Shown one piece after another: positions 35,841-37,402 of a stretch of DNA of 39,990 bases. Within the stretch, counting starts at the first letter, position 1. Every line of letters begins with the position of its first letter. The notes beneath the pieces were generated by a model that worked only from the letters and a program-made list of their open reading frames with translations, searched no databases and was not told the DNA's origin. This DNA comes from Acidobacteriota bacterium (GTDB lineage Bacteria > Acidobacteriota > Terriglobia > Acidiferrales > UBA7541): NCBI GenBank assembly GCA_003225295.1, contig QHYZ01000047.1:158213-198202 (forward strand), in the 5' to 3' direction. Both the position numbers and the translations under genes were made by a program.

Positions 35841-36182
35841 TTATGCCTTCGGCGCCGCGGGTGCTGCTGCTGGTGCTGCGCCGCCTCCTGCTGGTGCCGG
35901 GCCGGCAGCCTTCTCGAGCGCCGCCTTCACGCCGTGGCCCTTGAACGAACGCGTCGGTGCGAATTCGCCCAGCTTGTGTCCGATCATCTGTTCGGTCACA
36001 TACACGGGGATGAATTTCTTCCCGTTGTGCACGGCGATGGTGTGCCCGATCATTTCCGGCACAATTGTCGAACGCCGCGACCAAGTCTTGATCACTTTTT
36101 TTTCGTTGCGGGTGTTCAGTCCTTCGACCTTTACGCGCAGGTGGCCATCCACAAACGGCCCTTTTCTCAGTGAGCGTGCCAT
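35841..36182 (-). CDS. rpsS: 30S ribosomal protein S19 with Ala/Pro-rich tail
   Basis: 113 residues against a usual ~92. [60 protein letters not shown] and FKGHG identify S19 of the 30S head. The C-terminal ~25 residues are nearly all Ala, Pro and Gly ([22 protein letters not shown]). The ribosome binding site GGAGG lies within the last codons of orf126, 12 bases before the ATG, so translation of the two is probably linked. Confidence 0.98.
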
Positions 36183-36189
36183 CGATTAC

Positions 36190-36570
36190 CTATTCCTCCA
36201 CTCGCCGCAAGCGGCCCCATTGGGCCCGTCGCATCTTCTTGAATCCTCGTACCGGCCCGGGAACGCGGTGCGACTTCGGGCAGAACGGGCAGACAAACCG
36301 CGTGCCCTGGGCATTGGCAATCCGTTCCACAATGACCGCCCAGCCCGGCTTGCACAGCTTGTACAGCACCGGCTCCGGCGGAGCCACTGCGACCTTGACC
36401 AACGGACGCACCGGCTTGGTGCTTTTCGCGGTTACGCGCTTGGCGGCGCGCTTGGCCGTGCGTTTTACCGACCGGCTGCGCCGTCCTGCTGATCGTGTTG
36501 TGTGTGTCGCTCGCATCGCTTTTGCTCTCACCAGGCGCCTCTTCGTTCGCCGCCCGGTTTCTCGCCTCAT
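36190..36570 (-). CDS. orf126: basic CCCH putative zinc protein between rplB and rpsS
   Basis: 126 residues at a position where the classical S10 operon has no gene. Residues 1-55 are very rich in Arg and Lys (about half) with low complexity, suiting RNA binding. Residues 60-126 look like a small folded domain: VLYKLCKPGWAVIVERI, then TRFVCPFCPKSHRVPG and a basic end. C73, C94, C97 and H101 form a C-x20-C-x2-C-x3-H set that could bind zinc. The frame starts 13 bases after the rplB stop and its last codons carry the rpsS ribosome binding site. G/C-ending codons dominate the second half. An alternative start is the ATG at 36516 (residue 19). I do not recognise the family; a ribosome-associated role is inferred only from place and composition. 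Confidence 0.75.
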   Translation of the reverse strand: MRRETGRRTKRRLVRAKAMRATHTTRSAGRRSRSVKRTAKRAAKRVTAKSTKPVRPLVKVAVAPPEPVLYKLCKPGWAVIVERIANAQGTRFVCPFCPKSHRVPGPVRGFKKMRRAQWGRLRRVEE

Positions 36571-36583
36571 TCACTTCTGGTAC

Positions 36584-37402
36584 TTACTTCCTGCGCTCGA
36601 CAATGTGCTTGTCGGTGCGCTTGTTGTTTCGCGTCTTCTTCCCCAATGTCGGGAAAGCCCACGGCGTCTGCGGATGATTGCCCTTTACCTTGCCTTCGCC
36701 GCCGCCGTGCGGATGATCCACGGGGTTCATGGCCACGCCGCGTACGGTGGGTTTTTTCCCATGCCACCGTGTGCGCCCGGCTTTTCCGTAGGTTTCGTTC
36801 TCATGGTCGAGGTTGCCTACCTGGCCGACCGTGGCCATGCACTCCACGGAAAACTTGCGCACTTCGCCGGAAGGCAGTTTCACCAGCGCGAGATCGCCTT
36901 CTTTGCTCAGCAACTGCGCCGAGCCGCCCGCGGAACGCACCACTTGCCCGCCGCGCCCGGGATACAGCTCGAGGTTGTGAACCATCGTGCCGGGAGGGAT
37001 GTGCTTGAACTGTAGCGCATTGCCCGGAAGAATGTCCGAGCCCTCGCCGGTTGAAACCGTTGCGCCCACTTCCAATCCCACGGGATGGAGGATGTAGCGC
37101 TTCTCGCCGTCGGCGTAGTGCAGCAGCGCCAGGTTGGCGCTACGATTGGGGTCGTACTCGATCGCCGCCACCTTGGCGGGCACGCCGAGCTTGTCGCGCC
37201 GGAAGTCCACCTTGCGGTAGGCCTTCTTGTGGCCGCCGCCGCGGTGCCAGATCACGATTTCGCCCTGGTTGTTCCGCCCGCCCGAACGCTTCTTGGGCTC
37301 CAGCAGCGCCTTTTCGGGCTCCTGCTTGGTGATGTGGCTCTTGTCCACGACGGTGATGAACCGCCGCGAGGCCGTATATGGATTAAAGCTCTTCAGTCCC
37401 AT
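36584..37402 (-). CDS. rplB: 50S ribosomal protein L2
   Basis: 272 residues, normal length. [41 protein letters not shown], the SH3-like domain ([26 protein letters not shown]) and the peptidyl-transferase-proximal [19 protein letters not shown] with its essential His are intact. L2 is a primary 23S binder needed for subunit joining and peptidyl transfer. AGAGG lies 5 bases before the ATG. It is followed by orf126 rather than directly by rpsS. Confidence 0.98.

Follow-up and report, generated by a model that had tools for sequence, protein, structure and literature searches.

A candidate lineage-specific ribosomal protein, probably zinc-binding, encoded between rplB and rpsS in one family of Acidobacteriota

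The S10 cluster is the most conserved gene cluster of bacteria. In the 39,990-nt stretch of acidobacterial DNA considered here (the window), the neighbours tested are the usual S10-spc genes by Pfam, and the 401 nt that separate rplB from rpsS hold an open reading frame on the minus strand that starts 13 nt past the rplB stop and ends 7 nt short of the rpsS ATG. A sequence-only reading of the window, correct in these dimensions, counted the frame (36190-36570) as 126 residues from its first ATG and proposed that it encodes a lineage-specific ribosome or assembly factor. Is this frame a gene, where does it occur, and what could its product, given the working name X, be doing between uL2 and uS19? 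The genes and signals of the gap lie as follows.

36584..37402, minus strand: rplB (uL2), the upstream neighbour of X, with Pfam PF00181 and PF03947
36517..36570, minus strand: the first 18 codons of the 126-codon frame, most likely an untranslated leader, unconserved as codons and with stops in several relatives
36516..36190, minus strand: the coding sequence of X, 108 residues, ATG at 36516-36514 and TAG at 36192-36190, with start M19 and frame kept (69 distinct members)
36195..36199, minus strand: the Shine-Dalgarno sequence GGAGG of rpsS within the last X codons, located by sequence
35841..36182, minus strand: rpsS (uS19), the downstream neighbour of X, with Pfam PF00203

Translation of X probably begins 18 codons later than the sequence-only reading had placed it. 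An ATG at the earlier position is found in the window alone among the leaders of genus g1 that were compared, and M19 of the 126-residue frame is the conserved start in that genus. Outside g1 the start is less certain: an earlier in-frame ATG (MNPARR-like) is present in many members of other genera. In five members (L075-L078, L102) the frame instead opens close to the rplB stop, at a Met after which LARR follows, and L078 has a short extra start besides this one. Since the stretch before M19 had been counted as coding, the leader RNA element within it, described below, was missed. At the other end of the frame, the rpsS ribosome binding site does lie in the final codons, as had been noted: GGAGG is contained in GTG GAG GAA TAG, a like sequence is seen in many relatives, and the arrangement suggests translational coupling. 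The frame has no other match in the 8.1-Mb genome assembly to which the window belongs.

The frame is conserved far beyond chance, and X is a coding gene under strong purifying selection. Over its last 67 codons there is not one in-frame stop among 69 distinct members, whereas the other five frames over the same codons contain 12, 26, 31, 86, and 95 stops. Third codon positions of X are about 2.5-2.8 times as variable as positions 1 and 2. The ratio pN/pS for these codons in the 69 members is 0.30, compared with more than 1.4 in four of the other frames, two sense and two antisense; the remaining antisense frame, whose codon positions mirror those of X, gives 0.40 and carries 31 stops. When the comparison is restricted to pairs whose pS falls between 0.1 and 0.45, dN/dS has a median of 0.077 in the X core (214 pairs, maximum 0.42) and of 0.047 in uS19 (253 pairs, maximum 0.20). 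The dN/dS comparison that had been proposed as a check, about 0.08 against 0.05, thus indicates purifying selection. The X core has a mean identity of 0.81, uS19 one of 0.87, and the part of uL2 used one of 0.83, and the distances of X correlate with those of uS19 (r = 0.75, with none of 999 permutations as high) and with those of uL2 (r = 0.48). X evolves like a vertically inherited housekeeping protein. The sequence-only reading had named loss of the frame in relatives, or a rival conserved frame in the gap, as evidence against its proposal; the frame is kept in relatives, and the gap holds no such rival.

The distribution of X was followed in 151 genomes, 89 from the window's own family (f1, 13 genera) and 62 from outside it. 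X is found in 77 of the 89 family genomes at E 8.5e-27 or better and in none of the 62 others, where the best E is 0.007. The 12 family genomes in which X is missing also give no match to rpsS, and X is present in all 50 family genomes in which the control search finds rpsS; with the same control query, rpsS is recovered from 56 of 61 genomes of the order. When a 52-member profile of X was run against a 396-genome sample of the phylum, only the window's own genome matched, a result that speaks to absence outside f1 and not to frequency within it, since other X-bearing f1 genomes would match. A GTDB-based contig collection, scanned with the window protein at a reach of close relatives only, yielded 32 loci titled Acidobacteria, Acidobacteria gp2, Candidatus Acidiferrum, Candidatus Acidoferrales, Acidobacteriaceae, or Terriglobia (in the NCBI taxonomy Candidatus Acidiferrum belongs to Candidatus Acidiferrales, Terriglobia) and one further locus whose record title is Betaproteobacteria.

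Inspection of the rplB-rpsS gap in other Acidobacteriota, likewise proposed as a check, shows the site both filled and empty. In all 117 loci with X (from overlapping assemblies; 69 distinct frames) the gene lies between rplB and rpsS, which are 330-673 nt apart. The 35 loci from other families (34 genomes) all have a distance of -4 to 152 nt and no match to X; in the nearest families, which belong to the same order, the two genes are almost adjacent, at 23 nt in family f2 (one genome) and 0-4 nt in family f3 (five genomes). Because the site is filled in the family loci and empty in other families, the simplest account is that X was gained once, on the stem of f1. The longest distance, 673 nt, belongs to loci L022 and L053 (both G019), in which the X stop abuts a GTG start of rpsS. 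Two assemblies carry two X genes each, G007 (contigs C33 and C35) and G081 (contigs C34 and C63), and G007 also has rpsS twice; these are possibly mixed bins.

The protein in its revised 108-residue form has a mass of 12.2 kDa and a pI of 12.0 and is divided into two parts.

36394..36516, minus strand: the basic N-terminal tail of X, 41 residues, 37% Lys+Arg with no acidic residue, predicted disordered (residues 1-40 with pLDDT below 50)
36193..36393, minus strand: the conserved X core, the last 67 residues, with a predicted fold of five short strands and one short helix; 22 columns are invariant in 54 rows
36354-36352 (C55), 36291-36289 (C76), 36282-36280 (C79), and 36270-36268 (H83), minus strand: the ligand residues of X, invariant

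The Arg/Lys-rich N-terminus and compact domain described by the sequence-only reading are borne out. The tail that precedes the 67-residue core is 30-82 residues long in 68 members and has a mean of 36% Lys+Arg; the whole protein comprises about 97-149 residues. The AlphaFold2 model of the full chain leaves residues 1-40 unordered (mean pLDDT 61.6), while the 67-residue domain modelled by itself reaches a mean pLDDT of 82.8 and a pTM of 0.65. The four residues C55, C76, C79, and H83, which are C73, C94, C97, and H101 of the 126-residue form, are arranged as C-x20-C-x2-C-x3-H and do not vary: they are present in 68 of 68 rows with letters and in 54 of 54 rows of a second alignment, which includes a member that is incomplete in the first. 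This pattern argues that X probably binds one metal ion, most likely zinc, through these residues. Cys/His sets are also kept in the window's uS14, bL36, uL24, and uS4, as had been stated.

Is X then a known protein in disguise? Small size, basic charge, and a CxxC knuckle with further Cys/His residues are shared by X and the zinc-ribbon ribosomal proteins (bL31, bL36, bL33, and uS14, and eL43 in archaea and eukaryotes), and X might be a divergent copy of one of these, either bL31, whose spacing from the first Cys to the CxxC is by eye the same, or an eL43-like zinc ribbon, since a profile search of PDB sequences reached only two entries, both eL43 (E 0.29 over 20 positions). The ligand pattern of X is nevertheless unlike that of these proteins, and X has no profile similarity to bL31, bL36, bL33, uS14, uL24, or uS4, the proteins tested; canonical bL31 and bL36 genes exist besides X. 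For bL31, the hhalign score is 8.7 (probability 0.11%), below the best of 50 shuffled bL31 profiles (16.1), and X has C-K-P where the bL31 sequences compared have C-x-C, one half of the CxC and CxxC ligand set. For eL43, none of 52 members matches the Pfam family Ribosomal_L37ae at E up to 10 with filters on, there is no structural match either, and the second CxxC of the eL43 motif is absent from X. The best of the extended hhalign controls, uL24, has a probability of 4.2% and is not convincing. Descent from a known zinc ribosomal protein is thus largely refuted, and we regard it as highly improbable.

More general searches gave the same picture. Profile searches for relatives had been recommended; those run against PDB, Pfam, and NCBIfam returned nothing convincing, and comparison of X with Pfam, NCBIfam, and PHROGs produced weak, scattered matches only. 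The X core has no match in plasmid and phage collections. Foldseek against the PDB found no convincing relative (best E 4.1 with the full model, 1.6 with the domain), and of 439 chains aligned to the domain by VIA-align none has Z of 2 or more. In the open-licence literature, no paper was found that names X in its title or at the start of its abstract. The scattered Pfam matches involve zinc ribbons, Elf1 and FORGETTER1 among them, in at most 5 of 52 members and with a best E of 0.04, and the Ala/Arg/Lys-rich tail is of a histone-like kind. Both features would fit a nucleic-acid binding protein unrelated to translation, associated with the nucleoid or RNA polymerase and merely housed in a strong operon. 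Such a role is very unlikely, given a gene that always lies between rplB and rpsS in the loci examined and a divergence that tracks that of uS19.

The stretch between rplB and the conserved start contains a second conserved element, this one in RNA.

36530..36558, minus strand: the stem-loop of the leader, with arms at 36558-36549 and 36539-36530, which ends 13 nt upstream of the X ATG and was detected by covariation in 32 leaders
36525..36532, minus strand: a Shine-Dalgarno-like GGTGAGAG upstream of X that overlaps the base of the stem, located by sequence

In 32 distinct leaders of the g1 type, compensatory two-sided changes occur in 8 of 9 pairs (a level reached by 9 of 500 shuffles), 89.6% of the pair cells are standard pairs compared with 76.4 +/- 1.3 when shuffled, and the covariation score is 0.430 compared with 0.203 +/- 0.022 (0 of 500 shuffles), figures that lean toward the stem because the structure was derived from the same alignment and the shuffles keep relatedness. 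When the partners are slid by 1-3 columns, the covariation score is at most 0.139. Selection on pairing is supported by stems, such as that of L026, whose letters differ in large part and nevertheless pair. One inner pair of the window's own stem-loop is a G-G mismatch. A covariance model built on the 68-nt leader matches a single place in the window's genome and also recovers L052, which lies outside the alignment. Rfam has no match above chance in 36150-36650. Two other identities were considered for the stem-loop and set aside: a terminator, as the sequence has no T run after it, and a 23S mimic, as the model R1 gave nothing significant in the six family 23S loci supplied.

In leaders of the g1 type, X thus has the covarying structure in front of its gene that marks a ribosomal leader (r-leader), but no single structure is kept across the lineage. 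Among the 69 members, 34 have the stem-loop (32 aligned, L007 by eye, and L052 by the model), 27 have a near-invariant GC-rich GGCGCGGCGGG-like element at the same place, and 8 have neither by inspection (L075-L079, L102, L146, L147). The near-invariant (C)CCGGCGCGGCGGG element is seen in most members outside g1, about 17 nt before the conserved start; among L059-L151, examples are L065:1593-1660 (-), L067:1302-1362 (+), and L145:927-994 (+). Because 5 of the 24 exact matches to GGCGCGGCGG lie off the common reading frame, this element is conserved as nucleic acid and not through its codons alone. A hairpin at the GC-rich element showed two-sided changes in 0 of 4 pairs.

Many ribosomal proteins bind their own leaders. 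The stem-loop before X probably tunes X synthesis, and by analogy X plausibly binds its own leader, in autoregulation. It could even be that the chief role of X is to regulate the S10 operon as an RNA-binding protein, which would bind the stem-loop and adjust translation from rpsS to the operon end; the stem-loop is found just upstream of X and once in the genome, and the rpsS Shine-Dalgarno sequence inside X points to translational coupling. However, the leader element differs across the family while the protein core is nearly constant, so most of the constraint on X must come from elsewhere, and a chiefly regulatory protein is quite unlikely. The nearest parallel is the L2 r-leader candidate of Alphaproteobacteria, located before rplB-rpsS, which is likewise a stem-loop fronting genes of the same operon (PMC7247131); the X leader differs in lying between rplB and X, in Acidobacteriota, and in finding no counterpart in Rfam. 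According to that paper, whose main text does not contain the word Acidobacteria, ribosomal leaders are typically not widespread, and many are probably undiscovered in understudied phyla (PMC7247131).

If X acts on the ribosome, its site might have left a trace in the partners. Ten family and ten other 23S sequences (several partial, one family genome represented twice), aligned with that of E. coli, show no family-specific element of note and no base signature; the differences are one 4-column gap at E. coli position 277 and one column at 2799. Near position 277, letters are present in about 1 of 10 covering family sequences and in all of the covering others (the sequences include L155, L159, L162, and L163). 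In two family genomes the 23S gene is interrupted: L172 (G036:C51) carries 557 nt of additional sequence after E. coli position 1923, before 1924, and L170 (G063:C78) carries 630 nt between 1931 and 1932; these may be introns or intervening sequences. Assembly G044 has a 23S gene on each of two contigs, L155 and L184, with identities of 73% and 69% to that of E. coli; it is possibly a mixed bin. Signature columns in the ribosomal proteins are scattered; a first pass gave three columns in uS3, of which a wider genome set kept one. The tightest cluster, at the C-terminus of uL2, was rejected as a docking site, being common to family f2, which has no X. In this otherwise very conserved uL2 loop (about residues 238-253; window 36584-37402; L231), VKG(N/K)HP.TPW..(P/S)TLG is seen in 19 of 19 family sequences and one f2 sequence shown, and forms such as TSGGRHPVTPWGQPTRG in the other acidobacterial uL2 sequences shown.

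X could also have taken the place of an older component. Twenty E. coli ribosomal proteins were sought in five family and three other genomes, and none is absent from all five family genomes yet present in all three others; for this reason X looks like an addition, not a replacement. Misses at E 0.1 were bL32 in 7 of 8 genomes (found only in G134), bS6 in G000 and G009, bS16 and bS20 in G000, bL28 in G009 and G022, and bL33 in G037, with a broken match only in G049; they carry little weight because the queries come from E. coli.

The lack of a clear docking signature in 23S or in neighbouring ribosomal proteins would suit a transient binder, and the main rival to a ribosomal protein is an assembly or hibernation factor whose basic tail binds pre-ribosomal or idle particles and which then leaves. 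Position, charge, and selection fit such a factor equally. On the other hand, every family genome with a detected rpsS also has X, and X evolves nearly as slowly as uS19. Ribosomal proteins are usually short chains that combine a disordered basic tail with one small domain, and X is built in this way. We therefore consider an assembly or hibernation factor unlikely.

Taken together, these results favour, with moderate confidence, a lineage-specific ribosomal protein for which zinc binding is probable and self-regulation perhaps to be added. This is the best fit because of the size, basicity, and tail-plus-domain build of X, its fixation, its near-uS19 rate, its place with the rpsS site, and the stem-loop; a place in a ribosomal operon, retention through the lineage, and a small, basic, slowly evolving product are features of the ribosomal-protein class. 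Of the original proposal, lineage-specificity, coding capacity, and the CCCH set stand, and the step to the ribosome draws on position, charge, rate, and the leader stem-loop. We infer metal binding, ribosome association, and autoregulation from these features. X would have been gained once, on the stem of one acidobacterial family whose relatives are titled Acidobacteria gp2 and Candidatus Acidiferrum, and then kept. On the S10 mRNA its translation would fall between those of uL2 and uS19; the protein would extend its flexible Arg/Lys tail into rRNA, and its small beta domain, held by a metal through C55, C76, C79, and H83, would sit on the ribosome surface. The stem-loop before the start codon would tune its synthesis, plausibly through binding of X to its own leader. 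The fuller proposal, a novel family of ribosomal proteins that has a small fold and a metal site of its own and was added on the stem together with an autoregulatory leader RNA, is put forward tentatively, as a possibility somewhat short of even.

Known proteins of this kind provide a scale. In Borrelia, cryo-EM density revealed bS22, which is very basic (61% Lys/Arg), and bL38, for which mass spectrometry helped to identify the gene (PMC10618245); a mycobacterial pair of lineage-specific ribosomal proteins is the subject of PMC5876184. Like X, bS22, bL37, and bL38 are small, confined to a lineage, and overlooked by annotation (PMC10618245, PMC5876184). Unlike them, X is longer, has an invariant CCCH set and a predicted beta domain, and is encoded within the S10 operon, as a putative component of the ribosome.

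Few new ribosomal proteins can be dated to a single branch. For X, loci that have the gene (every family locus examined) and loci that lack it (families f2 and f3 of this order) are both available, so that the arrival of a possible ribosome component can be studied together with that of a leader RNA as a single event. The case suggests that in little-cultured phyla the ribosomes contain proteins missed by annotation, which would come to light only through comparative genomics or ribosome proteomics. For family f1, a group of soil Acidobacteriota, it adds a strongly positively charged protein that is most likely a new part of the ribosome or a helper to it.
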